A DNA stretch of 38,774 nt from a virus. The stretch lies in the IMG/VR virus record IMGVR_UViG_3300015360_000013, positions 1 through 38,774 of that record, one strand, 5' to 3'. The stretch's first letter is position 1. Each line of letters starts with the position of its first letter. The translations under genes and the position numbers were made by a program. The notes beneath the pieces were generated by a model. It made no database searches. It worked only from the letters and a program-made list of their open reading frames with translations, and was not told the DNA's origin. Shown piece after piece: positions 16,941-34,032 of this stretch.

Positions 16941-17196
16941 TAGAATCTATATCAGAATCATCCATCACAAAGAAAAGATCAAGAACAGGTCTTGCAAATT
17001 CTGTTTCTAAATCTGATTTGGCTTCAGCAATTAAAGCAGCCCTAAAACGAGTAAAAACAAGCATGACTTTACCGTTTTCTAGATCTTCTTGCCTGAGTAA
17101 TTTCCAACCTAGATGCGATTCAGAGACAACCCAATCAATAATTGCATCTCTTGAACAGCTTAACGTTTTTAAATGTGTAAAAGATACTGGATTCAT
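16930..17196 (-). CDS. Small protein downstream of the recombinase
   Basis: 88 aa, ATGA overlap with the recombinase gene. Contains GWKLLRQEDLENGKVMLVFT, shared with the next gene downstream, and an acidic end (VMDDSDIDSNGT). The tight coupling to the recombinase suggests a related role, but nothing in the sequence shows one. Confidence 0.6.
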   Translation of the reverse strand: MNPVSFTHLKTLSCSRDAIIDWVVSESHLGWKLLRQEDLENGKVMLVFTRFRAALIAEAKSDLETEFARPVLDLFFVMDDSDIDSNGT

Positions 17197-17882
17197 TTTT
17201 CTCCTTTATGACGTAACTTATGAGAAACCCTAAAGATAGATACATGATTCCAATTCATATTATCCCGATTATAGATTTGTTTTTCATTCAATTCTTCAGC
17301 TATTTTTCTATAAGAGGTGCAATCCTTCCTTAGTTCCATGATATGTTTTAAGATTTGTTGTTCTTTTTTATCCTTATCTAAATGAATTTTATCTTCACGT
17401 AATTTAAAACCATAAGGGATATAACCGACTCTTTGGCCTCTTCCTTTTTTGACTTGTAGAGCTGATTTAATCCTAAGACCAATTATAAGACGTTCATATT
17501 CCGCAAAAGCATCTATCATTCTTTTCATCAGAATGGAAGAGGGATCATTATCATCTTTAACATCTCCACTAGCGCTGATTAAACGAGCTTGCTTTCTTTC
17601 AACAGCCCTTTCAATCATGGCATTTACGATAATATCCCGACCGATTCTGTCTCTATTAGCAATTAAAAGAACATCGCCTTTCTCTAATGCATTAATAGCA
17701 GAAATTAAGGCAGGGCGTTTTTCCATGCAAAGCGCCCCGCTAAAACCCTGATCAGAAAATTCTAAAACATGAGCATTAGGGTCATTAATAAATTTATGAC
17801 ACTTTTGTCTTTGGGCTTCGATTCCCAAACCTGATTCTTTTTGCTGATCAGTACTAACCCGAAGATATATTGCATATTTCAT
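17193..17882 (-). CDS. Serine recombinase (resolvase/invertase family)
   Basis: 229 aa. Resolvase domain: YLRVSTDQQKESGLGIEAQR (6-25) with nucleophile Ser10, GFSGALCMEKRPAL, the active-site helix region LLIANRDRIGRD and the dimer/E-helix MKRMIDAFAEYERLIIGLRI. The C-terminal 80 residues (RGQRVGYIPYGFK, then KIAEELNEKQIYNRDNMNW) look like a short Recombinase-type DNA-binding part; the protein is far smaller than large serine integrases (about 450-600 aa). It may resolve multimers, invert a segment or integrate. No tyrosine integrase is present. The start overlaps the stop of the decayed upstream frame as TAATG. Confidence 0.85.
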   Translation of the reverse strand: MKYAIYLRVSTDQQKESGLGIEAQRQKCHKFINDPNAHVLEFSDQGFSGALCMEKRPALISAINALEKGDVLLIANRDRIGRDIIVNAMIERAVERKQARLISASGDVKDDNDPSSILMKRMIDAFAEYERLIIGLRIKSALQVKKGRGQRVGYIPYGFKLREDKIHLDKDKKEQQILKHIMELRKDCTSYRKIAEELNEKQIYNRDNMNWNHVSIFRVSHKLRHKGEK

Positions 17883-20839: not shown

Positions 20840-20874
20840 GTTATTATATTCATGCTTAAATTTTGGAGATCAAA

Positions 20875-21453
20875 ATGAAATTATTAGTTTTAACTGCCTT
20901 ATTTATGTTGTCTTGTTCAAATGTATTTTCAGGTCAATATGTAGGTTTGAATGCAGGTATTGATTCTTTGCATTTGACATCTGGAAAAACACAAGGTTTA
21001 AAAACAGGTTATAAAGCGGGATTGAATTATGGTTATGTATTTGGAAATGGAGTTAGAAGCGAGGTTGAATGCACATATGATAAAAATAATTACAAGACTA
21101 AATATGTTGTAGAAAACGATAATGTAGTTTCAAAAGAATATAATAACATTCATTCATGGGCATACATGGTCAATGTTTTATATGATCTAAAACAATTAGC
21201 AGTAAAAGAAGTTACTCCTTATTTTGGTATTGGAGTTGGATATTGTCAAAATACCCAACATAATAAAATCAAATATGATTCGACTACAAATGAAGATAAA
21301 TTGAAAGATAATCGGTTCGCTTATCAAGCCATTTTAGGTCTTAAATATGCGATCAATACTGACTATTCAACAGCTCTAGAATATCATTATTTCTGTGGTC
21401 AATCACATGCTAAATCTCATAGACTGGGTCTCTCAATAATTAGAAGTTTCTAA
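20875..21453 (+). CDS. Outer-membrane beta-barrel protein (cargo gene)
   Basis: 192 aa from the ATG at 20875, GGAG 8 bases upstream. A signal peptide (MKLLVLTALFMLSCSNVFSG) leads into QYVGLNAGIDSLHLTSG and alternating beta strands (YKAGLNYGYVFGNGVRSEVE; TPYFGIGVGYCQNT; FAYQAILGLKYAINTDYSTA), ending HRLGLSIIRSF, with the C-terminal Phe used by outer-membrane insertion machinery. The size and pattern fit small OmpA/OmpX-like 8-strand porin-family barrels. It would be made by the infected cell and placed in the outer membrane, perhaps to exclude other phages. It is flanked by terminators with the same stem, so it may be a separately transcribed cassette inside the virion operon. Confidence 0.78.
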   Translation: MKLLVLTALFMLSCSNVFSGQYVGLNAGIDSLHLTSGKTQGLKTGYKAGLNYGYVFGNGVRSEVECTYDKNNYKTKYVVENDNVVSKEYNNIHSWAYMVNVLYDLKQLAVKEVTPYFGIGVGYCQNTQHNKIKYDSTTNEDKLKDNRFAYQAILGLKYAINTDYSTALEYHYFCGQSHAKSHRLGLSIIRSF

Positions 21454-21486: not shown

Positions 21487-21508
21487 AATGTAAATCCGGC
21501 TTTACATT
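21487..21508. repeat. Dispersed palindrome, copy 1
   Basis: AATGTAAA and TTTACATT flank TCCGGC: 22 bp with one mismatched pair next to the central CCGG. Two further copies lie at 33471 and 33779. Located three bases after a terminator and before the coat leader. Confidence 0.85.
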
Positions 21509-21545
21509 TAACTTCCAAAAAATTCAAAACTTTCATAACATGAAG

Positions 21546-21685
21546 ATTCGCAGACACTTGCGTTAATGTGTCATTCGCGTAAGAGGAATTCGCATCCCTC
21601 ATCAGATATGATCGAGAACTGACGTAACTAGGCTCGTCTACCGATCCTCATATCGTATCAATATCAACAAACAAAAGGTTGATAG
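21546..21685 (+). promoter_or_regulatory. Structured coat-gene leader with ribosome-site hairpin
   Basis: Several stems can form: GACAC/GTGTC (21553-21557 and 21568-21572 area), GAGG/CCTC (about 21583-21600), and a longer one at 21605-21654 in which GATAT and GATCG pair with ATATC and CGATC around a 3-base bulge. Just before the coat ATG (21686) TATCAAC (21662-21668) pairs with GTTGATA (21678-21684); the ribosome site AAAAGG lies in its loop and first stem base. This could tune coat translation. Confidence 0.55.
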
Positions 21686-22651
21686 ATGATCACGAATACT
21701 GGGAATCTAGGCCCTATGATTTTGCAGTCGCTCGCGCCTGCAATGTTATATGTTCCTACCCCTACAATGAACTATATTACTATCTGCGATAAAGTATCTA
21801 TGCCAACTCATGGCGGAACTACATGCAGATTTATGCGCCCACGCGCACTACAACCACCAACCATTCAGTTGGGGAACTCAGGAATAGATCCACCAGCTCA
21901 AGTGCCACAAAGAGACATCATAGATGCTCAAATGGCATTTTTTGGTACTGGATGTATCATTAACGAACAAGTTATTTTGCAAGACCAAGAAGGCGTTTTA
22001 GCTTGGGTATCTGAAAGACTAGCTGTTGCTATGAGACAAGCGGAAGATTTAATCCTTAGAGATTATGTCGTTTCTGCTGCTTCTCAAATCAATGCTGGTG
22101 GTGGATCCAATGGGGACAACCCAACTAACTTAGGAGTCTCTGACTTCTCATTAGTTGCTACAACACTCGATACAAACAATGCATATAAATTTATGTCAGG
22201 GATTGAAGGCATGGATCGGTTTGGTACAGGACCTGTTCGTTCAGCATATTTTATGTTGAGCTCAACAGAACTTCAAACCGATATGGATGCGCTAGTTGGA
22301 CAAGGCTTCCTATCACAATGGAACTACCCTACCAATGCATCAGCGTTGCCTTCAGAGTATGGATCTGTTTTCAACATTCGTGTTTTAACAAGTTCAGAAG
22401 CTCCTGTTGCTCGTGGCGCATCTGCTAACGGAAACGATTTGTATTACAATACTGTCGTTGGTAAGCAAGCTGTAACACACATTAATCAAGATGGTTTTTC
22501 AATGAATTTGATTTACCGTGACCCATACTATAGTGGTATGTTGGCCCAAAATGCTACTCTTGCGGTGAAGTTTGCTCAAGCGCAAGCTATTACTCAGGAT
22601 ACAGCTATCCGAAACCTTCTAAGCACACGCTTATCAAATTTGGGGGTTTAA
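21686..22651 (+). CDS. Major capsid protein (N4-gp56-like)
   Basis: 321 aa. The order of blocks fits the N4-gp56 capsid family: an N-terminal arm, GGTTCRFMRPRALQPPTIQL (39-58), PPAQVPQRDIIDAQMAFFGT (68-87), INEQVILQDQEGVLAWVSER, AVAMRQAEDLILRDYVVSAA, and a C-terminal receptor-free tail. These coats have the HK97 fold. It follows the scaffold in the expected order, has a structured leader, and is directly followed by a likely head decoration gene. Expected to be the most abundant virion protein. Confidence 0.85.
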   Translation: MITNTGNLGPMILQSLAPAMLYVPTPTMNYITICDKVSMPTHGGTTCRFMRPRALQPPTIQLGNSGIDPPAQVPQRDIIDAQMAFFGTGCIINEQVILQDQEGVLAWVSERLAVAMRQAEDLILRDYVVSAASQINAGGGSNGDNPTNLGVSDFSLVATTLDTNNAYKFMSGIEGMDRFGTGPVRSAYFMLSSTELQTDMDALVGQGFLSQWNYPTNASALPSEYGSVFNIRVLTSSEAPVARGASANGNDLYYNTVVGKQAVTHINQDGFSMNLIYRDPYYSGMLAQNATLAVKFAQAQAITQDTAIRNLLSTRLSNLGV

Positions 22652-22652
22652 G

Positions 22653-23798
22653 ATGACTGAATACTCAAGAATGGCTAAGGGTAGATTCGTATCTACTGGA
22701 CAAGCAAAAATGATTAATCTGCCATTCGTGCCAGATTATGTTGAATTAATCAACTATACAGCTTCTGCTTCTGGAGCAGACAATGGAGTTCCTAATGCAC
22801 ATTGGGATTCCTGTATGGGAGAAGGCGTTGCGGTTATAGATAGATTCCAAGCGGCTAATCAGCTTACTACTGATACCGTAGATACTTTAGGTATCAGCAC
22901 TTTCCGTGCTGGTTTAGCTCTTCAGTATGGTGCAACTCAGTTAGTTTCTACCATTACTAAAGCAGATCCAGCCGTTGTGACAGCTTCTGCTGCGCACGGA
23001 TTGAAAAGTGGTGATGTTGTAATATTCCAAAACATTTACGAAACAACTACGACTGGTATGCAGCAAATTTCCGGCATTCCTTTCACTGTTACTGTAACTG
23101 GTGCTACAACATTCACAATTCCATGGAATACAAACCAATCGAACTACACTGCTTATACTTTTGTGGCACAATCTACAAGAGCTTCATTTAAGCAAGTGTT
23201 GTATCCTTACTTGTATTTCCCAGGAACATCTTTTATCAGTGCAGTTGAAATTAATACCCCAACTGGTTATACCACAGTTCACACAAGTAATGCTCATAAC
23301 TTTGTTGTTGGTCAAGAAGTTGCTTTTAGAATTCCTACAATCTGGGGAACCTATCAGCTAAATTCTCTTCCAAACATATTAATTCCTGGGTCTCCGATCT
23401 ATGGATACGTGGTATCTGTGACTGATTATAACACTGTTGTTGTTAGCATCAATTCTCTTGGTTACACAGCATTTAACTCTAATCAAGTATTTGCAAGCTT
23501 CCCTGGAGAGTTCTACCCACAGATCGTAGCAGTGGGCGATGTAAATACCGGTGGAGTACAAATATCGGCTGGATCACAATTGTATCCTCCTCCTTATTCT
23601 GTACAAATCGGTACAACTAGAATTAACACTATCAATGGACCTGCAATCCAAGGGGCTTATGTAAATAACACCTCTCAAGGATTCATCATTGGTGCGGGTG
23701 TTGCTCAAGGCGATGCATCAGCAATACTAATTGGAACTGCTGAAGACGTAATTTATTGGAGAGCTTTCCTCCATGACATTTCGTTGTGTTCATCATAA
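22653..23798 (+). CDS. Head decoration or virion surface protein with repeated beta domains
   Basis: 381 aa, starting one base after the coat gene's stop region with GGGGG as ribosome site. Two copies of a beta domain: about 97-169 (DPAVVTASAAHGLKSGDVVI) and 194-276 (YTTVHTSNAHNFVVGQEVAF). The A-H-G/N-x-x-x-G-x-x-V-x-F pattern is that of the FCCH-like beta domains annotated in phage structural proteins. The same domain appears in the next gene and in the gp10-like protein. Position after coat suggests a decoration or head-completion protein. A terminator follows. Confidence 0.65.
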   Translation: MTEYSRMAKGRFVSTGQAKMINLPFVPDYVELINYTASASGADNGVPNAHWDSCMGEGVAVIDRFQAANQLTTDTVDTLGISTFRAGLALQYGATQLVSTITKADPAVVTASAAHGLKSGDVVIFQNIYETTTTGMQQISGIPFTVTVTGATTFTIPWNTNQSNYTAYTFVAQSTRASFKQVLYPYLYFPGTSFISAVEINTPTGYTTVHTSNAHNFVVGQEVAFRIPTIWGTYQLNSLPNILIPGSPIYGYVVSVTDYNTVVVSINSLGYTAFNSNQVFASFPGEFYPQIVAVGDVNTGGVQISAGSQLYPPPYSVQIGTTRINTINGPAIQGAYVNNTSQGFIIGAGVAQGDASAILIGTAEDVIYWRAFLHDISLCSS

Positions 23799-23805
23799 TT
23801 AATAT

Positions 23806-23829
23806 GGAGAGGGGAAACCCTCTCCTTTA
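23806..23829 (+). terminator. Factor-independent terminator inside the virion operon
   Basis: GGAGAGGG (23806-23813), GAAA tetraloop, CCCTCTCC (23818-23825), TTTAT. It follows the decoration-like gene and would lower expression of tail genes relative to coat. Confidence 0.85.
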
Positions 23830-23840
23830 TGAGGTTATAA

Positions 23841-24266
23841 ATGGTTTTCCCAAGCGCAATTACAGGTCCTATTGCACCTTATTCAAATGTGCCTATAAAT
23901 CCACAATATTACGTGCCAAGACAATATTTTATTTCTACTATTGTTAATGGAGCCACAACATTGGTGACGACAACTACAGCTCATAATTATGTAGTTGGGC
24001 AGCAAGTAAAATTATTAATTCCTATGTTTAACAAAATAATTGAATTAAACAATAAAACTGGTTTTGTGATCTCTATTCCAGCTGCAAATCAGGTAGTTAT
24101 TGATATAAATTCAAACTTATATAATATATTTCAAACTTCTACATATCCAACTCAACCACAGATTCTTGCGATTGGAGATATCAATAGTGGAAATATAAAT
24201 ATATCTGGTAATGTGAATACGGGAACGTTTATTCCCGGAAGTTTCATTGACATATCACCACTGTAG
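23841..24266 (+). CDS. Small virion protein with the same beta domain
   Basis: 141 aa; GAGG before the ATG. Residues 30-97 (TLVTTTTAHNYVVGQQVKLL, IIELNNKTGFV) resemble the second domain of the preceding gene, and ILAIGDINSGNINISG parallels IVAVGDVNTGGVQISAG there, so this gene is probably a partial duplicate. A minor decoration protein is a reasonable guess. Confidence 0.6.
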   Translation: MVFPSAITGPIAPYSNVPINPQYYVPRQYFISTIVNGATTLVTTTTAHNYVVGQQVKLLIPMFNKIIELNNKTGFVISIPAANQVVIDINSNLYNIFQTSTYPTQPQILAIGDINSGNINISGNVNTGTFIPGSFIDISPL

Positions 24267-24273
24267 GTAAACC

Positions 24274-24858
24274 ATGACAGAAGAAAAGAAAGCAAAGCCT
24301 AAAATTGCACAAACGGAAATGGATAAACTTGATGATCAATTTCAAGCATTTGATAAGAATGTTCAGGAATTAACTCGCGATAGAATGAATACAGCTCCTG
24401 TAGAAGAAAGAGAGCCTCAGACTAAAATTGCACAAGTAGATTTAGAAAAATCTAAAGATATTTATTTGAAACCTAAAAGATCGATTGGTTGCAAAGAAAA
24501 ATTTAATGAAAAGTTCCGCGATGACTACAACTTTAAAAAAGAATATGTCCATTTTACTGCAGAAAACCATGAGATTATTGGGGAATCTATTGATCTTTGG
24601 ACAAGACCATTTCCTGGAGTTCCAGCAGAAAACTGGGTAGTTCCCGTTAATACAGCTGTTTGGGGCCCAAGATATCTTGCCGAGCAAATTAAAGGTTGTA
24701 CTTATCACCGTCTTCATATGCAACAGCATACCGGAACTGGATCAGATGGAATGGGTCAGTACTACGGTGCGATGGCTGTCGATAAAACAATACAAAGATT
24801 AGATGCATTACCGGTAAGCAAAAAAAAATCAATATTTATGGGAGCTAATAGCTTCTAG
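24274..24858 (+). CDS. Head-tail region virion protein
   Basis: 194 aa. Charged N-terminal half with helix-forming repeats (AQTEMDKLDDQFQAFDKNVQ), then a conserved-looking block: RDDYNFKKEYVHFTAENHEI, IDLWTRPFPGVPAENWVVPV, NTAVWGPRYLAEQIKGCTYH. I recognise this as recurrent in related podophages before the gp4-like gene, function unknown. Probably a minor head or connector protein. Confidence 0.6.
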   Translation: MTEEKKAKPKIAQTEMDKLDDQFQAFDKNVQELTRDRMNTAPVEEREPQTKIAQVDLEKSKDIYLKPKRSIGCKEKFNEKFRDDYNFKKEYVHFTAENHEIIGESIDLWTRPFPGVPAENWVVPVNTAVWGPRYLAEQIKGCTYHRLHMQQHTGTGSDGMGQYYGAMAVDKTIQRLDALPVSKKKSIFMGANSF

Positions 24859-24869
24859 GATGGTGAATC

Positions 24870-26093
24870 ATTAATCTTTTACAAGACGTAATTACTTATA
24901 TAAGAAGGATCATAAAAAGTCCTTCTAATAGTTCTATAAGCGATAGTTTATTGATCGACTATATCAATAGATTCTGGTTAATGGATGTAGATGCAAGAAT
25001 TCAAGTTTTTGATCTTAAGTCAAAATATGCATTCCTAACCTCTCCAGGCGTTGATCAATATAATATGCCTTTATATAGCGCACAAGTCGAACCAGGTAAT
25101 CAATCAATAGCTATGTTTCCTGTTTATCAGGGATTTTTAGATCCATGCTATATAAATGGTGTTCAAGTTCCTCTTCAAACACAAAAGAATTTATTTTTTA
25201 ATTCCTATCCAAACGTTGTTCAAAATTTACAAAATGTAGAAACAGGAAATGGTGGAAGTACTTATAATTTTAATGTACCTATAATGCCAAGTACTGTTCC
25301 AACTCCTATAAATCCCCCAATCAATTGCCTTTTAAGAGGCCATGTTGATCTTACTGGGGTTATCTCTACTGGTAATAATGTAGATCCTCCATTAATAAGT
25401 GGTGCAAGAATATTAAATATTGCAAGTGATCCATTTATCTCAGACATGCCTGTTACAAGTGTATTTCCAGCAGTTTATATTACAGCAATAGCAGCAGATG
25501 GAAATAATGTGGTTGTGACAGATAGTGGACAATTCTTAGAATCTAATGTAAATTATGGTCTTTTATTATCTCCAGGGCATGCACCATTTGGCAATGTCGC
25601 CTTAAGTGGAGCAGCTCCTGTATATAGCACAACATCGAATACTATAAATTATTTGACTGGTGAAATAAATGTAACCTTTCCAGTCGCTATTCCAATTGGA
25701 GCTAATATTAGTGTCCAATGTTATTATTTTCAGACAGGATTACCAAGATCAATCCTTTATTACAATAATACTCTTACTCTTAGAAGTCCTCCTGATAGAC
25801 AATATCTTGTTGAATTGGATGCTTATTTAACTCCTGCAGCATTTTTCCAAACATCACAAGCGATCCCTTTTGGTTACATGGCTGAATATATTGCAAGAGG
25901 ATCAGCAAGAAAAATACTTTCCGATACTGGTGATTGGGAGCAATTCAATGCTTACGAGCCATTATTTAAAGAACAAGAAAGCCTTGTTCATATAAGAAGT
26001 CAGCGTCAATGGACAAACAATAGAACACAAACAATATATAGCCAAGGCTCTATTGGTGGTTTTGGCACTAACTTTGGTGGGGGAACGCTATGA
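24870..26093 (+). CDS. gp4-like head completion/tail adaptor, probable ATT start
   Basis: 407 aa if begun at ATT 24870. The first usual start codon in frame, TTG at 24951, would drop INLLQDVITYIRRIIKSPSN and ISDSL, which read directly into LLIDYINRFWLMDVDARIQV and look like the normal opening of this tail adaptor group. TGA at 24864-24866 blocks further extension. AGGA (24857-24860) is 9 bases from the ATT. The C-terminal part (RQYLVELDAYLTPAAFFQTS; YIARGSARKILSDTGDWEQF) matches the helical end of such adaptors. P22 gp4-type proteins join the portal to the tail hub. Confidence 0.72.
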   Translation: MNLLQDVITYIRRIIKSPSNSSISDSLLIDYINRFWLMDVDARIQVFDLKSKYAFLTSPGVDQYNMPLYSAQVEPGNQSIAMFPVYQGFLDPCYINGVQVPLQTQKNLFFNSYPNVVQNLQNVETGNGGSTYNFNVPIMPSTVPTPINPPINCLLRGHVDLTGVISTGNNVDPPLISGARILNIASDPFISDMPVTSVFPAVYITAIAADGNNVVVTDSGQFLESNVNYGLLLSPGHAPFGNVALSGAAPVYSTTSNTINYLTGEINVTFPVAIPIGANISVQCYYFQTGLPRSILYYNNTLTLRSPPDRQYLVELDAYLTPAAFFQTSQAIPFGYMAEYIARGSARKILSDTGDWEQFNAYEPLFKEQESLVHIRSQRQWTNNRTQTIYSQGSIGGFGTNFGGGTL

Positions 26094-26758
26094 ATTTAAC
26101 TTATACAACGGGAATTCCTGATACCCCAAATAATCCTTCGAATGATCAGCCTCCAATGAAAGTGAATACGAATTCAATAAATTCTATTATACAAATTGAT
26201 CATTCTGGTTTTAATGATAATGACGGCGGATATCATACAATTATTCATCAAAAATCAGCTACTAGAAGTAGAAGTGGACAAGGGAATACATTCACAAACT
26301 TTCCTGCTGCAATAGCCTTAGTAGATCAAATATTTACAGCTGCTTACACGCCAGATACAACAGGTGGTGTTGCCGATACTCAAATATTTAGTCGTACAGG
26401 AAATGGAGATATTTCACAATTATCAGGATTTGTAGCATCTACCGATGGTCATCAATGGCTAGGAGGAATACTAATTCAATGGGGAAGAGCTGGATCAGGA
26501 ACTGTAACTAGCGGAAGCTTTGCTTCAGGTGCAGCATTAGGAACTATTACATTTAAAGATAGATCACCAGGATTAATCCCGTTTCCAAACGCATGTTTTA
26601 ATGTGTTAACTGTTCCTAGGTATGCCACTACTCCCCCTAATGCGGCAGGAACTATTTCTGTAGATTTCAATACATTATCTAGAACTGGATTTGATTATAG
26701 ATTTATTTCTGTAAGTGGAAGTTATACTGGTTTTTTCTGGGTAGCAATAGGTAATTAA
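26090..26758 (+). CDS. Tail fibre protein with gp53-like C-terminal domain
   Basis: 222 aa, ATGA overlap. N-terminus TPNNPSNDQPPMKVNTNSIN and IIQIDHSGFNDNDGGYHTII form the attachment segment seen in small phage fibres; the C-terminus (GGILIQWGRAGSG, ITFKDRSPGLIPFPNACFNV, then FYRF-type end and FFWVAIGN) fits the gp53-like fibre-tip domain. Encoded between the gp4-like and gp10-like genes, so it may attach to the tail hub. Confidence 0.72.
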   Translation: MNLTYTTGIPDTPNNPSNDQPPMKVNTNSINSIIQIDHSGFNDNDGGYHTIIHQKSATRSRSGQGNTFTNFPAAIALVDQIFTAAYTPDTTGGVADTQIFSRTGNGDISQLSGFVASTDGHQWLGGILIQWGRAGSGTVTSGSFASGAALGTITFKDRSPGLIPFPNACFNVLTVPRYATTPPNAAGTISVDFNTLSRTGFDYRFISVSGSYTGFFWVAIGN

Positions 26759-29703
26759 TGGGACAAAAAATCGTTGTAGGTTCATTAAATAAAGGTCTAA
26801 AAAATGACGTTACTCCTTTCAATGTCGATAACGATTCATTTCCGACTTTAATAAACGCCTATCAATGGAGAGGTCGTGTAAAAAGAAAACGTGGCACCTC
26901 TCTTTTGGGAAGACTTCAACGTTTTATTGGAACAACTGATGGAGCAGGAAATTTAGTTGTTACGATTCTACCAATTCCAATTGCAACAGGAATTGTGTCA
27001 TTTACAATCGGTGCTGATGTATTTGTAGATCCAGGTGGAGCAAGTCCTGTAGCCCTATTAACAAATAGCGCAGGTACTGGTACTTTAAATAGAACGACTG
27101 GTGTTCTCACAATTACAGGGTCAATTGCGCTTACATCTGTGATTTATTTTCCAAGATTGCCTGTTATGGGTCTCGAAGAATTAGCCTTAACATCCACTCA
27201 ATTTCCAGGCACATTAGCTTTTGATACAGATTATTCTTATAATATTTTAACGACGTTTCCTTATTCAATTTATGATGTAAGTTTTTATAAAAATTTAGCA
27301 ACCGGAACGTATCCTGGATATATGCAAAAAACAACTTGGACTCCAACGACTTGGAACGGTGAAGATTATCAACAATTCTGGACTGTAAATTATCAAGGCG
27401 CATTGTGGGCTACAAATGGGATAAGTGTTCCTTTTATTGCGGCTACAAATATTGGGATGCAATATAAGTTTATAACAGGTGTTACAATTGGTGCAGCAGG
27501 TCCTCCTGCTTTAGCCAATTTAACAATTGTCGATCATGGTTTAGTTGTAGGTGATTTTTTATTTATCAATGAAGTTGGAGGAATAACTGGGATTAATTTT
27601 CAAACCGGTTATGTTACAGTCGAAATAGATGCACATAATGTAACTGTAGAATTTCCTAATGCAACTCTTGGTGGAGCTTATACAACTGGAGGAATTGCTC
27701 AATATCTAACAAATCGTTCTGATACTTCTGTAGATTCATTAAGATGGTATGATGGTGATCCAACAAATGGCAATCCTACTATACCAACTATGGTAACAGG
27801 AAAAGGTTGGGTTAATTTCGCTCCTCCATTGTCCAAATTAGCTTATTCTATCGCCGATACTCCTGAAGCTATCTACTATTTAGTAGGCGCTAGAATGATT
27901 ATTCCTTTTAAAGACAGATTATTGTTTCTTGGACCTGTGATCCAAACATCGGCTGCTGGGAGTCAAATATATCTTCAAGATACAATCATTTATAGTAATA
28001 ACGGAACTCCTTTTTATACAGCTTCGTTTACTGGTGACCCAAGTCTTGCTACAACAACATTTACTCCTATTCTTGTTCCAGTAAACCAAACCGCAATTCC
28101 TACATCTTATTGGGAAGATCAAACTGGATTTGGAGGATTCATATCAGCTGGTATTTCACAACCTATTTTAACAGGTTCTTCAAACGAAGATATTTTGATA
28201 GTAGGATTCAGTGAAACTCAAACCAAATTGGTTTATAGCGGTAATGATATCGTTCCTTTTAACTTTTATCTTATAAACTCTGAATTGGGTTCAGGTAGTA
28301 CATTTTCATCCATTAATATGGATAGAGGTGTACTTACAAGAGGTCAAAGAGGTTATCTTATAACTTCTCAAGTAGGAACACAAAGAATTGATTTAGATAT
28401 CCCAGATGAAGTATTCCAAATTTCTTTAACTCAAAATGGAAACGAAAGGGTTACCGCTCAAAGAGATTATATAAATGAATGGTGTTATTTCACATATCCT
28501 GAGACTGATAATCAAGACAAATATAAATTTCCAAATCAAACTCTACAATATAATTATCGAGACGACTCATGGGCTATATTCAACGAATGTTATACGACAT
28601 ATGGTTCTTTTAGAAAAGCATCAGGTTTCACTTGGGGTTCTGTAGGTTCAGTTTATCCCACTTGGGGATCTTGGACAGTACCTTGGAATGCAGGTTCTTC
28701 TAATCTTGAACAACCAGAAGTTATTGGTGGAAATCAACAAGGTTTTGTAATTGTACGCGATGATGGATTGGATGAATCTAATTCTCTTTACATTCAAAAC
28801 TTTTCTACAAGTGTTGTGACTTCTCCGGACCATACTTTGAATGAGGGTGACTACATAGTTATTAGTGGAGTTCTTGGAACAATTGGAACTCAAGTTAATG
28901 GTAAAATATTCTCTGTTGCATCTCCAACTACAAATACATTTACTTTGAATCCAGCTATAACGGCTGGTACTTATCTAGGTGGCGGACTTATTAAAAGGAT
29001 GTATGTCCCTTTTGTACAGACAAAACAATTCCCAGTTGCATGGCAAATGGCAAAGAAAACAAGAATTGGAGTTCAACAATATCTTTTAACAACAACGGCA
29101 AATTCTCAAATACAATTACTTATTTTCTTAAGTCAAGATGATTCAACGCCTTTCAATATTGGTTCTATCGTTCCTGAAATAAACACTGTGAACGATTCTC
29201 TTGTTTATAGCACCGTACTTTATACTTGCCCAGAAAGTACTAATTTAGGTTTGACACCTGCAAATACTAATTTGAATCTTCCAACAGCTAGAACTCAAAA
29301 CCAAACCTGGCATAGAATCAGCACTTCTTTAATTGGGGATACTATCCAATTAGGATTTACAATGTCAGATACTCAAATGAGATCTTTGATTGCAACTGGT
29401 GCTCTTATAGCCATTACTGCTGTAACAAGAGCAAATCCAAGTGTGCTGTCAACTACAGCTGCCTATCCTGTAGGAACAGTTATAGAGGTTAATAGTGTTG
29501 TAGGAATGACCCAGCTTAACGGGAATAGATATATAATTCTTGAATCTACATCTACAACTATCACTATCGATGTGGATTCTATAAACTTCACTGCATATAC
29601 ATCAGGTGGTACTGTCAATTCAGTTGCTCCAAGAAATCAATTCTCAGAAATCGAATTGCATGGATTTATTTTAGATGTTTCTCCATCACAGGACTTAGCA
29701 TGA
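26758..29703 (+). CDS. gp10-like tail hub / DNA stabilisation protein
   Basis: 981 aa, the largest protein; start overlaps the previous stop as TAATG. The N-terminus GLKNDVTPFNVDNDSFPTLI and NAYQWRGRVKRKRGTSLLGR is characteristic of gp10-like tail proteins that close the portal after packaging in P22-like phages. The body is beta-rich with at least three FCCH-like insertions (about 250-320, 684-745, 884-960; e.g. VDHGLVVGDFLFINEVGG). P22 gp10 is about half this length, and the extra domains may explain the size. Confidence 0.75.
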   Translation: MGQKIVVGSLNKGLKNDVTPFNVDNDSFPTLINAYQWRGRVKRKRGTSLLGRLQRFIGTTDGAGNLVVTILPIPIATGIVSFTIGADVFVDPGGASPVALLTNSAGTGTLNRTTGVLTITGSIALTSVIYFPRLPVMGLEELALTSTQFPGTLAFDTDYSYNILTTFPYSIYDVSFYKNLATGTYPGYMQKTTWTPTTWNGEDYQQFWTVNYQGALWATNGISVPFIAATNIGMQYKFITGVTIGAAGPPALANLTIVDHGLVVGDFLFINEVGGITGINFQTGYVTVEIDAHNVTVEFPNATLGGAYTTGGIAQYLTNRSDTSVDSLRWYDGDPTNGNPTIPTMVTGKGWVNFAPPLSKLAYSIADTPEAIYYLVGARMIIPFKDRLLFLGPVIQTSAAGSQIYLQDTIIYSNNGTPFYTASFTGDPSLATTTFTPILVPVNQTAIPTSYWEDQTGFGGFISAGISQPILTGSSNEDILIVGFSETQTKLVYSGNDIVPFNFYLINSELGSGSTFSSINMDRGVLTRGQRGYLITSQVGTQRIDLDIPDEVFQISLTQNGNERVTAQRDYINEWCYFTYPETDNQDKYKFPNQTLQYNYRDDSWAIFNECYTTYGSFRKASGFTWGSVGSVYPTWGSWTVPWNAGSSNLEQPEVIGGNQQGFVIVRDDGLDESNSLYIQNFSTSVVTSPDHTLNEGDYIVISGVLGTIGTQVNGKIFSVASPTTNTFTLNPAITAGTYLGGGLIKRMYVPFVQTKQFPVAWQMAKKTRIGVQQYLLTTTANSQIQLLIFLSQDDSTPFNIGSIVPEINTVNDSLVYSTVLYTCPESTNLGLTPANTNLNLPTARTQNQTWHRISTSLIGDTIQLGFTMSDTQMRSLIATGALIAITAVTRANPSVLSTTAAYPVGTVIEVNSVVGMTQLNGNRYIILESTSTTITIDVDSINFTAYTSGGTVNSVAPRNQFSEIELHGFILDVSPSQDLA

Positions 29704-30182
29704 GCGCAAACGTAGTAAATCAAGTTGCTTTCTTAAGGACATCTAGAAACTTTCCTGAAAATATTCCAGAGTTGGTTGTGCAATTATCCAAAAGTTATAT
29801 TGATACTTCAAATGCTGTAAACGCTAGAACGATTGGAATATTCCCTACTAATCGTCCAGCTATTACTGGTGAATCTTGGTATTTTAATAAAAACCAAAAG
29901 CAGCAATCGCTTAGACAGATGTATACGTTTACGACCTTAACAGCGATTACTCATGGAATTATATTTGGTGCAACATTTGATGAAATTGATCGATTTACAA
30001 GAACATTTGGTGAATATACAGATGGTACGAATTGGTATGGATTAATTCCTGGAAGTAATGTTGCAATAGCTGGACAAGTTTCATTTTATGTAACGCCCAC
30101 TCAAATTATATTTTTATCTGGTGTTGGGGCTCCAGCTGTAACTAATGGAAATGTAGTTTTGGAATGGCTTTCAGATACATAA
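29700..30182 (+). CDS. Tail/virion protein
   Basis: 160 aa, ATGA overlap with the gp10-like gene. N-terminus VAFLRTSRNFPENIPELVVQ, LSKSYIDTSNAVNARTIGIF then a beta-rich C-terminus. This is a recurrent small tail protein in related podophages (memory), possibly a tail needle or nozzle component. Confidence 0.6.
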   Translation: MSANVVNQVAFLRTSRNFPENIPELVVQLSKSYIDTSNAVNARTIGIFPTNRPAITGESWYFNKNQKQQSLRQMYTFTTLTAITHGIIFGATFDEIDRFTRTFGEYTDGTNWYGLIPGSNVAIAGQVSFYVTPTQIIFLSGVGAPAVTNGNVVLEWLSDT

Positions 30183-30212
30183 AGTGATAATATAAGTAAA
30201 AAGAGGTGATAT

Positions 30213-30773
30213 ATGATAGGGGATACAATTCCTGAAGGTTATTCAACTGCATCTTTGCAGAATTTTACACCAAAACAGATGAAACTGTTTAAAAGAAATT
30301 TTAAAAATGTAGGGAAAAATAGTTACCTATCAAAATTAGCTGGTGGTGATCAATCATTTTATGATGAGATAGAAGCACCGGCACTCAGACAATTTTCAGG
30401 AATTCAAGGAAATATTGCTTCAAGATTTAGCGGTGGTGGTGGTGGTCAGGGCGCTATGAGTTCAAGAAGGAGTAGCGGATTCCAAAATGAAATGTCAGGT
30501 GCAGCTTCCGATTTTGCTCAAGACTTACAATCAAGACGTCAATCACTTCAAAGACAAGCACTTTTAGATTTGCAAGACATTAGTCAACAATTAATGGGTC
30601 AAAGACCAAGAGATAGATCGCTTGTTCAAAGACCTCAAGAAGATGATTCTGGATCTGGATGGGGTGGTTTAATTGGAGCTGGATTAGGAGCTGGAGCAGG
30701 ATTCTTTGCAGGTGGACCAGCTGGAGCTATGACTGGAGCTAAATTAGGACAAAGTATTGGTTCATCATTCTAG
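30213..30773 (+). CDS. Candidate ejection protein (gp7-like position)
   Basis: 186 aa. Helical and Gln/Ser-rich with a Gly run (SRFSGGGGGQGAMSSRRSSG), then a Gly/Ala-rich hydrophobic C-terminus (GGLIGAGLGAGAGFFAGGPA) that could insert into a membrane. First of three consecutive genes placed like the P22 gp7/gp20/gp16 ejection proteins. GAGGTGAT precedes the ATG. Confidence 0.6.
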   Translation: MIGDTIPEGYSTASLQNFTPKQMKLFKRNFKNVGKNSYLSKLAGGDQSFYDEIEAPALRQFSGIQGNIASRFSGGGGGQGAMSSRRSSGFQNEMSGAASDFAQDLQSRRQSLQRQALLDLQDISQQLMGQRPRDRSLVQRPQEDDSGSGWGGLIGAGLGAGAGFFAGGPAGAMTGAKLGQSIGSSF

Positions 30774-30780
30774 GAGATTT

Positions 30781-31938
30781 ATGGCTATTCAAATATTACC
30801 AGCAGCGCCTCAGAAAAGATCATTCGCTCAGAAATTGAATGAAGGTGTAGGTCGAGGTCTTGAGATGGGATCTCAATTAATTCAACAACATCAGGCTAAA
30901 CAAAAACAAGAACAGCAAATTAAACAAATGGATGAAACCATTTATAAATTGACTGGTCAAAATGTTTCTGGGTTGCCCGTTGATGCTAAGACTAAGTTTC
31001 TTCAAGAAGTGACAAAAGGTGAATATAGTTTAGAAGGAAGAAAGTTGGGTACTCAAGGAAAATCACCAGCTGGTGGTTTAACCGGTCAACCTGTTCCCCC
31101 TGAAGTTAGTCAAAAATTAAATGAGATTGTTCGAGGAGCTCCTAATTCTAGTGCTGACGAATTAAAAGGGATGATGGATGAGCAAGGAATTCCTCCTGCA
31201 TATTCTAATGGCTATGTAGAAAATAGAAGAAGACAAGACGAACGAATTGCTGCATCAAAAGATAAAAGATCTGAAGCTGGACAAAAACGAGCTGAGAAAA
31301 TCTTAGATGAAGGTGATATTCTTGGAAAGGAACTTCCTCTTCTTGAGTCTTCTGTTATGGCGATGGAAGATGCTATCCAAAATGGAGATCAAAGTTTTTG
31401 GTCCCTTGATAATTTAGCAGAATTAACAGGATCGGAACTATTTAGAACTGCAAAAGGTGGACAATTTAAAACAGCTGCAAAGACATACTTCCTAAATGAC
31501 TTGAAGTCTTCAGGAGGTCGTCCAAATATGTTTATAGAAAAGATGCTAGCTGATGCATTACCTAAAATGGGAAGGTCGGAAGAAGCAAACCAAACCGTTC
31601 TTGAATCTTTTAAATTTTCTAATGACTTAAAGAAAAAAAGACATGAAACAATTAGAGATTTAGAAAAATATTACGAAGAATCAATGGGATTTTTACCTGG
31701 ACGTTTTAATTCAATAGTTGAAGAGAACATGAAGCCTTATATTGAAGAACGTCAAAAAGATTATGAAAAAAGACTTAAAGAAATCGCCGTAATTGAAAAG
31801 AAAAAGTCTAAGAAAGGTAAAGAAAAGAAAAGTCAGTTATCAGGAACATTTATAGATGTTATGGGTCCTGATGGCCAGATGTATGAAATCGATCAAAGCG
31901 AAGTTGATCAATTACCTGAAGGGTATAAAATCCAATGA
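30781..31938 (+). CDS. Candidate ejection protein, helical
   Basis: 385 aa from the ATG at 30781, with AGGAG 6 bases upstream; a start at 30757 would overlap the previous gene needlessly. Almost wholly helical and charged, with coiled-coil stretches (LIQQHQAKQKQEQQIKQMDE; RLKEIAVIEKKKSKKGKEKK). The C-terminal 25 residues (TFIDVMGPDGQMYEIDQSEV) form a small acidic tag that reads like a motif used for packing proteins in the head. Position supports ejection with the DNA. Confidence 0.6.
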   Translation: MAIQILPAAPQKRSFAQKLNEGVGRGLEMGSQLIQQHQAKQKQEQQIKQMDETIYKLTGQNVSGLPVDAKTKFLQEVTKGEYSLEGRKLGTQGKSPAGGLTGQPVPPEVSQKLNEIVRGAPNSSADELKGMMDEQGIPPAYSNGYVENRRRQDERIAASKDKRSEAGQKRAEKILDEGDILGKELPLLESSVMAMEDAIQNGDQSFWSLDNLAELTGSELFRTAKGGQFKTAAKTYFLNDLKSSGGRPNMFIEKMLADALPKMGRSEEANQTVLESFKFSNDLKKKRHETIRDLEKYYEESMGFLPGRFNSIVEENMKPYIEERQKDYEKRLKEIAVIEKKKSKKGKEKKSQLSGTFIDVMGPDGQMYEIDQSEVDQLPEGYKIQ

Positions 31939-33248
31939 CACCATCTACATTGAGATTAAAATCACCATCTCCAAAAGAATCACCAAAAGAACCGATATCT
32001 TTTCAACCTTTAGTTGAAAATCAACCACGACCACCCCCTTCATCTTTAAAACCAAAATCTCTTAGACCAAAGAATCAAAACTTTCCTTTAGAAGGGGAGA
32101 ATGATTTAGACAGAGAAATCGAAAGAAATGTTGCTCAGCAAACTTCTAGAATTGGCGAAACTCTTCTAGGAGCTCCGGGTGATATATATTCTTTTGTAAA
32201 AGGAATATTTGGAGGAGATCCAGAAACAAATTTACCGACATCTAAAAGTTTAAGAGAAAAATCTGAAAAAGCATCTCTTGGTTATACAAAACCTCAAAAC
32301 GAATTTGAAGAAAGAATAGGGGAAGTTCAACAAGATATTGCCTCATTTATGATTCCAGGATCCGGTAAATATAATCTTCTAAGAAATATCGGAATTCCTG
32401 TTGTTGCCAATCTTGCAAAAGAAGGAATCAAGTTTGCTGGAAGCGAAAAAATGGGCGATGCAGCAAAAATTGGGACCATGATTGCCTTAGATTTGATGCA
32501 TTTGAAGGGGGGGGGAGCTAAAAAGTTCGCCGGAGACCTATTTAGTCAAAGCGAAAAGATGATAGTAGAAGGAACAACTCTTAAATCTCCAGGATTACAA
32601 AAGTCTCTTTCTTCATTAGAAAAATCTTTAGAAAGTGGAGGGTCAGCACCTTCTAAAGAAAAAGCTTTAAAGAAAATTAGTGAGATTCAATCCAAAATGA
32701 AGTCTGGAGAAATCGAAGTTAGAGAATTATTGGACTTTAGAAAAACCATTAATGAACTTAAACAAGAAATGGGTGGATTTGAGGTTCAGCTTCCAAAACA
32801 TATTAAGAAAAAAGCCATTGCAAATTTAGAACTCGTAAGAAAACAAGTTGCAAAAGGTATTGATGAATATGGAGCTCTTCACGATCCAGAATTTAGAAAA
32901 ATAAACAAAGCAGCCAATGAAGCTTATGCTGCTTATGAATCAAGCGATACGATTGCAAGATTTATTAAAAAACATGCAACTAAAAAAAGCCCTTTAGCAA
33001 AAACATTATTTGGATCAATAGGTTATGTAGGCATTAAAGCTCCCTTAATGGTGGCTAAAGGTACTGCAGGACTTCCAATAGCTTATGCAGCATATGAAGG
33101 ATATAAAGTTCTTCATCAAGTAATTCAAAGTCCGACTTTAAGAAAGTTCTACGGAAATATCCTTAAAGGAGCAACTTCTGGAAATGCTTCCCAAGTTTCT
33201 AAAAATATGCAACTTTTAGAAAAAGGACTTGAAAAAGAAGAAGATTAA
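31935..33248 (+). CDS. Candidate ejection or pilot protein
   Basis: 437 aa, ATGA overlap. Pro/Ser/Lys-rich disordered N-terminus (SPSPKESPKEPISFQPLVEN), a Gly-containing hydrophobic region about 145-200, helical middle (SLSSLEKSLESGGSAPSKEK), and an Ala/Gly-rich hydrophobic C-terminal stretch (GSIGYVGIKAPLMVAKGTAG). The mix of disorder and amphipathic segments is typical of proteins pushed through the tail to form a channel. No lysozyme motif is visible. Last gene of the virion operon; ends head-on with a minus-strand gene. Confidence 0.6.
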   Translation: MTPSTLRLKSPSPKESPKEPISFQPLVENQPRPPPSSLKPKSLRPKNQNFPLEGENDLDREIERNVAQQTSRIGETLLGAPGDIYSFVKGIFGGDPETNLPTSKSLREKSEKASLGYTKPQNEFEERIGEVQQDIASFMIPGSGKYNLLRNIGIPVVANLAKEGIKFAGSEKMGDAAKIGTMIALDLMHLKGGGAKKFAGDLFSQSEKMIVEGTTLKSPGLQKSLSSLEKSLESGGSAPSKEKALKKISEIQSKMKSGEIEVRELLDFRKTINELKQEMGGFEVQLPKHIKKKAIANLELVRKQVAKGIDEYGALHDPEFRKINKAANEAYAAYESSDTIARFIKKHATKKSPLAKTLFGSIGYVGIKAPLMVAKGTAGLPIAYAAYEGYKVLHQVIQSPTLRKFYGNILKGATSGNASQVSKNMQLLEKGLEKEED

Positions 33249-33448
33249 AAATGATTTCCATCATTGAAATAAGCATCTTCATTTTCAAGATTTCTCTTAG
33301 CAATTAATTGTTCATCTCCCATCCATATAAATAGATTAATGAACATTTGTTTAATTCCTTTTAAAATAGAAAAAAAGATTCCGAAAAAAACTATAAAATA
33401 TAATGCTGACATACCCGTGATAAATATGTATTTACAAATTTCAAACAT
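33245..33448 (-). CDS. Small membrane protein
   Basis: 67 aa with one long or two short hydrophobic spans near the N-terminus (YIFITGMSALYFIVFFGIFF) and a basic then acidic cytoplasmic-like tail. AAAGGATAAG before the ATG. Copy 2 of the palindrome lies 23-43 bases upstream. Candidate lysis or superinfection factor. Confidence 0.55.
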   Translation of the reverse strand: MFEICKYIFITGMSALYFIVFFGIFFSILKGIKQMFINLFIWMGDEQLIAKRNLENEDAYFNDGNHF

Positions 33449-33470
33449 AAAATAAACTTATCCTTTGGGT

Positions 33471-33491
33471 AATGTAAATCCGCTTTACATT
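33471..33491. repeat. Dispersed palindrome, copy 2
   Basis: AATGTAAA and TTTACATT flank TCCGC, 21 bp, in the gap between the stop of the holin-like gene and the start of the membrane-protein gene. See copies at 21487 and 33779. Confidence 0.85.
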
Positions 33492-33496
33492 TAAAA

Positions 33497-33769
33497 TTAT
33501 TCAGCTTTTCTATTCTGTTTATCATCTTTAAGAATACAGCATTCTTTAGAATAAAACGCCCCTTCCATTCTGTTTAGGCTTGTTCTTGTTTCTTTTAGAT
33601 CATTCCTAATATCTTTAATATCTGATCTCATATCTCTAATTTCAATATCCAATTCAGCGAATTTCGTATATAAATCAGCCTTGAAATTACGAATGATCGT
33701 ATATAAAAAAGTGGAGACGGCGATTGAGGTTCCAATAATGGAAATAATTATTTGAGTTGTGGCGTCCAT
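33497..33769 (-). CDS. Holin-like protein with membrane span and coiled coil
   Basis: 90 aa. One N-terminal span (IIISIIGTSIAVSTFLYTII) followed by a coiled coil (FAELDIEIRDMRSDIKDIRN, DLKETRTSLNRMEGAF) and a charged end. This N-span plus coiled-coil layout resembles XhlA-like and related phage proteins near lysis genes. GGAG lies 5 bases before the ATG. No endolysin gene is adjacent, so a holin role is only possible. Confidence 0.5.
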   Translation of the reverse strand: MDATTQIIISIIGTSIAVSTFLYTIIRNFKADLYTKFAELDIEIRDMRSDIKDIRNDLKETRTSLNRMEGAFYSKECCILKDDKQNRKAE

Positions 33770-33778
33770 TTAATCTCC

Positions 33779-33800
33779 AATGTAAATCCGGATTTACATT
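33779..33800. repeat. Dispersed palindrome, copy 3 (perfect)
   Basis: AATGTAAATCC is followed directly by its exact reverse complement GGATTTACATT, 22 bp. It starts at the stop of the ribbon-helix-helix gene and ends just before the ribosome site of the holin-like gene. Confidence 0.88.
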
Positions 33801-33982
33801 CATTGTTTCATCATCTTTTTTAAGTGCTTAGCAGTTTTCAAGTTGTCTTCTTGAATCTTAATAAAGTTTTCTATCAGAGCAACGCTTTGCTTTGTGATAG
33901 ATAGTTCCATGTCAATGCATAGAATTTTGTATCTTTTGTATAAGTCCAGTGGGACTCTGAATCTTAGTTCTTTTTCTTTCAT
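33800..33982 (-). CDS. Ribbon-helix-helix (Arc/CopG-like) regulator
   Basis: 60 aa from the ATG at 33982, shortly after GGGG; an in-frame ATG at 34018 would add a hydrophobic leader. ELRFRVPLDLYKRYKILCID then MELSITKQSVALIENFIKIQ shows the beta strand, two helices and the turn of the Arc/CopG fold. Lys-rich C-terminus. Such dimers bind short palindromes, and a perfect palindrome begins at its own stop codon, suggesting a regulator-operator pair; this is inference. Confidence 0.65.
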   Translation of the reverse strand: MKEKELRFRVPLDLYKRYKILCIDMELSITKQSVALIENFIKIQEDNLKTAKHLKKMMKQ

Positions 33983-34032
33983 AATCCCCATTATAGGACA
34001 AATTACAATTTTCCACACTATTTAGATTAGAT

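Follow-up and report, generated by a model that had tools for sequence, protein, structure and literature searches.

A palindrome common to a tailed phage and Chlamydiota chromosomes as a possible parS-like site

In mycobacteriophage L5 and in SPbeta, repeated operators (the stoperators of L5) are dispersed in short intergenic gaps of the phage genome and are bound by the repressor that the phage itself encodes. The parS site of ParABS systems (TGTTNCACGTGNAACA) is a short palindrome with a few to tens of copies per chromosome, which lie within and between genes, around oriC, and near parA. KorB of plasmid RK2, which belongs to the ParB family, combines partition and regulation in one protein and has many dispersed sites; its operator OB (TTTAGCGGCTAAA / TTTAGCSGCTAAA) has the center AGC-S-GCT (PMC11790492). 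Here, we describe a palindrome of 21-22 bp that occurs three times in IMG/VR record IMGVR_UViG_3300015360_000013, a virus contig of 38,774 bases that we analyzed in full (the window), and that also occurs on the chromosomes of Chlamydiota. With the L5 and SPbeta operators, it shares a dispersed, operator-like placement in phage gaps, but it is common to host chromosomes and to phages that are not closely related. With parS, it shares all of the features listed above, but it differs in sequence and is longer (19-22 bp), and the genomes that are rich in it lack ParB. With OB, it shares the AGC-S-GCT center, but the outer arms are TTT/AAA in OB and ATGTAA/TTACAT in our palindrome, and we identified no KorB-like protein in this analysis.

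Noc sites and matS are likewise dispersed chromosomal palindromes that are tolerated inside genes. They differ from ours in sequence, and matS is terminus-proximal, whereas our palindrome is origin-proximal in the complete Chlamydia genome G107. That position and the multiplicity of sites also rule out the XerCD site dif, which is 28 bp long and occurs once per chromosome, near the terminus. Finally, the 22-bp form resembles the TyrR box (TGTAAA-N6-TTTACA), but we rejected this identity because the spacer of most copies is five bases long, with a central C-N-G, and not six.

All three copies in the window lie between genes. Copy 1 (21487-21508, AATGTAAATCCGGCTTTACATT) has 8-bp arms, an imperfect inner pair, and a two-base center; it is directly 3' of a terminator-like hairpin and ahead of the leader of the major coat gene. 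Copy 2 (33471-33491, AATGTAAATCCGCTTTACATT) has a center of five bases overall, with a one-base center letter, and it separates minus-strand genes of 90 and 67 amino acids, lying 22 nt ahead of the latter. Copy 3 (33779-33800, AATGTAAATCCGGATTTACATT) is perfect (11+11). It shares the last base of the stop codon of a small open reading frame (ORF) that resembles a ribbon-helix-helix (RHH) protein, and it adjoins the Shine-Dalgarno sequence (GGAGATTAAATG) of the 90-amino-acid gene, thus separating the two. The original prediction, which was made from the letters of the window, was right on the following: the three positions, the intergenic context (two copies ahead of minus-strand genes and one after a terminator and before the coat leader), and the start of the perfect copy at the RHH-like stop codon, which is a one-base overlap. 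The whole record holds no further copies, and reversed-pattern controls gave zero matches. We conclude that the three palindromes exist and that chance is very far from accounting for them. The contig has no host flanks and encodes a P22-like portal as well as terminase and coat proteins of phage families.

A search with mismatches, on both strands and in related phages, had been proposed along with that prediction. It found the motif in many phages, so the motif is not specific to this one. The mismatch-tolerant searches of single records revealed a relaxed motif, xATGTAAA[GTA]C-N(1-2)-G[CTA]TTTACATx (that is, ATGTAAA-D-C-N(1-2)-G-H-TTTACAT), and reversed-pattern controls were again zero. When 2.9 million viral contigs were scanned for exact matches, 35 stretches were returned, and by far the commonest form at the viral loci is a single 21-mer, identical to copy 2, on either strand. 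The motif is found in many tailed-phage contigs, some of them unrelated, and beyond its 21-22 bp the flanks are unrelated except between obvious homologs. There are 39 exact matches to the real motif in 0.79 Mb of phage contigs and none to 60 shuffled-arm palindromes. For coat-gene loci taken without regard to the motif (1.36 Mb), the counts are 17 for the real motif and 0 for each of 60 shuffled-arm palindromes. Upstream of the coat gene, a copy is at the same position in six other viral sequences (G014, G016, G017, G019, G001, and L082).

Among cellular genomes, the relaxed motif is present in 99 of 234 Chlamydiota genomes (367 copies, with 24-37 in some genomes and 37 at most), while the reversed pattern is present in one genome. 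None of 398 Bacillota genomes has it; Bacillota is the one outside phylum that we scanned for the relaxed form. The exact long form has 11 matches in 84,980 genomes, mostly with other centers, and these are probably due to chance. The same scan also found the 21-mer once without mismatch, in a Chlamydiae metagenome-assembled genome, where it lies at the 3' end of parA. Because of the mere 11 exact matches and the absence from Bacillota, we rejected a general host repeat outside of Chlamydiota. To judge from its sequence distribution, the motif is a Chlamydiota-specific chromosomal site that is common to the host and its phages.

The major coat gene (21686-22651, plus strand, downstream of copy 1) belongs to PHROG 1357 and has abundant relatives in the viral collection (229 stretches). 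Relatives of its protein are also found in eight Chlamydiota genomes, at 74-95% identity in two of them and more weakly in the other six, and three of the contigs concerned are phage-sized (35-40 kb). Because of these coat relatives in Chlamydiota bins and the shared motif, the host of this phage is very likely a chlamydia, though co-binning can err.

Where do the sites lie on host chromosomes? A scan of the whole G107 genome gave three exact sites, all within 65 kb of the switch in GC skew (at about -65, -27, and +10.6 kb); the skew changes sign at the genome start (hemB). G107 is also the only genome for which we compared the sites to a measured origin; elsewhere, we used shared gene neighborhood as a proxy. 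One of the G107 sites lies 1.1 kb away from thrS-parA-CT583, with parA itself at a distance of about 3 kb. The parA neighborhood also bears the palindrome in G097 (at the 3' end of parA), in G164 (inside thrS, which adjoins parA), and in G275 and G322. In G275, 13 of 37 sites are on one 115-kb contig that carries thrS, parA, CT583, recB, tyrB, and mreC and is syntenic to the origin region of G107 (2.5 expected, P about 2e-6, which is somewhat flattering because the contig was picked out by its number of sites). Four more are on the hemB/greA contig and four on the uvrD/groEL3 contig, and contig C6 of G275 has a site roughly every 8 kb. In G322, the enrichment on the parA contig is smaller but significant (8 of 33 sites versus 2.2 expected, P = 0.002). 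Thus, in the two host genomes that we examined most closely, the sites are concentrated at the origin and/or the thrS-parA-CT583 locus. Recurrent places in Chlamydia-type genomes are the inside of recB (in many Chlamydia genomes), the 3' end of rpoN, and beside the gene that adjoins thrS. Host sites are found both inside genes and between genes, and several sites of one genome can share flank preferences that are specific to that genome.

Within a clade of phage terminase (terL) genes, the palindrome is in frame and encodes V-K-Q-[IL]-Y. We studied codon usage in 15 non-redundant members, which were gathered by protein similarity and so were chosen by their amino acids and not by their codons. 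Ranked by codon bias, the top three of 315 columns all belong to the palindrome: Tyr (TAC in 15 of 15, background 0.32), Val (GTA in 12 of 15, background 0.28), and Gln (CAG in 12 of 14, background 0.34). Shared ancestry inflates the P values but leaves intact the ranking against the gene's own columns. This ranking argues against a coding coincidence and points to selection on the DNA inside a gene.

We hold with moderate confidence that the palindrome is a parS-like or chromosome-organizing site of Chlamydiota that has been taken over by phages. As with parS, its conservation is at the DNA level and independent of reading frame, it clusters around oriC (more weakly in G322), and it is linked to parA; it lacks the canonical parS sequence and a cognate ParB in the same genome. 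Because the same word stands on host chromosomes, near the origin and segregation genes, the phage copies appear to be docking sites for a host protein and not switches for the phage's own repressor. In our model, a host-encoded DNA-binding protein with two-fold symmetry would work with ParA and would read the palindrome as a dimer. The bound protein would take part in chromosome segregation or organization, often near the origin and parA. The phage of the window and other phages of chlamydiae have between one and four copies, either in gaps that tolerate them or within codons, and this protein would be loaded onto their DNA and would tether, position, or partition it. The benefit to the phage might be that its DNA is tethered to the host chromosome during segregation, is positioned, or persists as an episome. 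It is also conceivable that the right arm serves as a -35 box at the coat promoter, with a side effect on regulation.

Several observations weigh against this reading. First, 135 of the 234 Chlamydiota genomes have no exact site. Second, ParB was detected in 75 of these genomes but in none of the 12 that have at least five sites (although assemblies may be incomplete), and it is near-canonical parS that tracks with ParB (31 of 75 ParB-bearing genomes versus 24 of 159 others). Third, the clustering in G322 is modest, with many sites on other contigs. Fourth, plasmid sequences that carry parA and CT583 (two whole, two in part) have no exact site, and only one of them has look-alikes, with 3-4 mismatches. 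Fifth, the phage contigs that were binned with Chlamydiota have no copy in the stretches that we read, so the site is not required by every such phage. Finally, the copy ahead of the coat gene has, in some phages, a right arm that could also function as a -35 element (TTTACA-16 to 18-TATAAA-like), and a transcriptional role would explain this too.

If the palindrome is a parS-like site, which protein would recognize it? The obvious first choice is ParB, since the AGC-S-GCT center is also that of the palindrome read by KorB, a relative of ParB. ParB is unlikely to be the general binder, and we rejected it in that role because it is absent from the palindrome-rich genomes. However, genomes with at least one copy of the palindrome are commoner among those with ParB (45 of 75 versus 54 of 159), so ParB might bind it in Chlamydia itself. 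We also rejected an identity with canonical parS, as near-canonical matches in Chlamydiota are close to the control level and go with ParB instead.

Another candidate is CT583, of the UPF0137 family, whose gene follows parA both on chromosomes and on plasmids. Chlamydial plasmids lack parB, and Pgp6, the plasmid counterpart of CT583, is needed for plasmid maintenance (PMC7846284). This role on plasmids without parB makes CT583/UPF0137 a natural candidate, with DNA binding putative. By sequence, CT583 has no relatives in PDB, and the phage loci that we examined have no relatives of parA, parB, or CT583. Tentatively, then, we propose a ParB-independent partition system in Chlamydiota, in which ParA and the co-operonic UPF0137 protein (CT583 on the chromosome, Pgp6-type on plasmids) would read this origin-proximal palindrome as a centromere, and tailed phages of chlamydiae that carry copies would be handled by the host's segregation machinery. 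Among plasmids, the Simkania plasmid pSn has a weak look-alike, ATGTACAACTGTTATACAT (L429:18997, 4 mismatches), about 100 bp upstream of the plasmid parA. Separately, Chlamydiifrater plasmids have a different perfect palindrome, ATGTATAATGAAT-TAAG-ATTCATTATACAT, shortly 3' of the CT583-family gene (L431:3284-3313 and L432:5704-5729), which in L431 adjoins tandem GCAACTTTAGGTGGTAGACTAT repeats. It is a candidate plasmid centromere or origin.

A second explanation is that the palindrome is the operator of a chlamydial transcription factor, which the phage would use to time its own genes, for example at the coat promoter. The recurrent position upstream of the coat gene fits this, as do the TTTACA that could serve as a -35 in several phages and the several copies that directly adjoin Shine-Dalgarno sequences, and so does the likeness of the 22-bp form to a TyrR box. 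We consider it rather unlikely because other copies are far from gene starts, inside terL, recB, and other reading frames, and because the sites cluster near the origin. Also, among the intergenic sites that we counted in G275, 8 are between convergent genes and 2 between divergent genes, which is unlike promoter operators.

Third, the palindrome could be the site of a host nucleoid or cell-division factor (similar to Noc, SlmA, or MatP, or involved in SMC loading) instead of a ParA-dependent centromere. Dispersed palindromes in and between genes, many per genome, and the lack of ParB in palindrome-rich genomes would all be expected of such a factor. We doubt this explanation, as partition accounts better for the proximity to parA in several genomes and for the tight grouping of sites around oriC in Chlamydia. 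Against a division factor, we also count that division in chlamydiae differs from FtsZ-based systems.

Fourth, the palindrome might act as an RNA hairpin, such as a terminator, a stabilizer, or a translational element. It does lie in a transcribed leader near Shine-Dalgarno sequences, and one host copy (L258) extends into a terminator-like hairpin. Nevertheless, this is very unlikely: what is conserved is the letters and not the pairing. We found 39 exact copies, nine one-sided changes in the arms, and only one compensated double change, so the palindrome is not an RNA stem. There are also copies inside reading frames.

The original prediction was that the palindromes form an operator set for the phage's own RHH-like protein, a 72-amino-acid ORF on the minus strand (33800-34018; 60 amino acids from an internal ATG). 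At E ≤ 0.001, this ORF matched nothing in Pfam or PHROG, so the ribbon-helix-helix label comes from the look of the sequence. The palindrome does adjoin the gene in the window and in G014, but of the nine phages with orthologs that we examined, these are the only two; the seven others, including G016, G055, G017, G019, G001, and G033, have the gene without an adjoining palindrome. Many palindrome-bearing phages (G005, G009, G013, G024, G025, G026, and others) have no RHH match in the sequence searched. Because of this and of the same word throughout the chromosomes of the host clade, an outcome that had been named along with the prediction as one that would refute it, binding by the RHH-like protein is highly improbable. 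What survives of the prediction is the notion of several sites for a DNA-binding protein, with a different binder.

That prediction also raised a mobile palindrome or recombination linker that moves among gene junctions, similar to a repetitive extragenic palindrome or miniature inverted-repeat transposable element (REP/MITE); the identical 21-mer in unrelated flanks and the gain of copy 3 relative to G016 and G055, where nothing separates the RHH-like gene from its neighbor, would suit it, but there is next to no chance of this, as copies in terL and recB are part of the codons, vary by substitution, and are constrained at the synonymous level without any insertion, no larger conserved element surrounds the site (flanks are not conserved beyond 21-22 bp, although we made no systematic search for target duplications), and flank preferences are common to sites of one genome.

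As for the neighboring phage genes, the 90-amino-acid gene between copies 2 and 3 (33497-33769, minus strand) has an N-terminal membrane segment and a coiled coil; it belongs to PHROG 1863, a family of unknown function, and its match to PF11043 is weak and below the cut-off. The 5' leader of the coat gene (21530-21685, and the leaders of L039-L113) is strongly conserved among relatives; hairpin-like TCGC...GCGTNA blocks recur in it, and it has a GATATGATCGAGAACTGACGTAACTAGGCTCGTCTACCGATC segment that is likewise conserved. The leader resembles a structured RNA, and an Rfam search of the window gave no match. In L020 (near 2605) and L097 (near 8789), a sequence that looks like a tRNA adjoins the copy that precedes the coat gene. 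The coat gene itself is split or lengthened in G134:C164, G242:C2, L020, L030, L103, and L107 (in G242, by about 1 kb near codons 104-122), which suggests an intron or a similar insert. Just before the coat gene, the window encodes an outer-membrane beta-barrel protein (20863-21453; OMP_b-brl, also Surface_Ag_2), which is unusual cargo for a phage, and G001 and G016 have similar ORFs. A gene similar to serine recombinases or invertases is on the minus strand at 17193-17882, and we saw no prophage junction.

In the open-access literature (subscription papers and preprints were outside our search), we found no described chromosomal centromere of Chlamydiota and no described function for CT583. 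An origin-proximal palindrome that is specific to the phylum is a concrete handle on DNA segregation in chlamydiae. Tailed phages of chlamydiae are also poorly known, and the motif may help to recognize, from sequence, uncultured phages that have chlamydial hosts. If it is true that this phage carries its host's site, it would be a virus that uses the host's signals for handling the chromosome.

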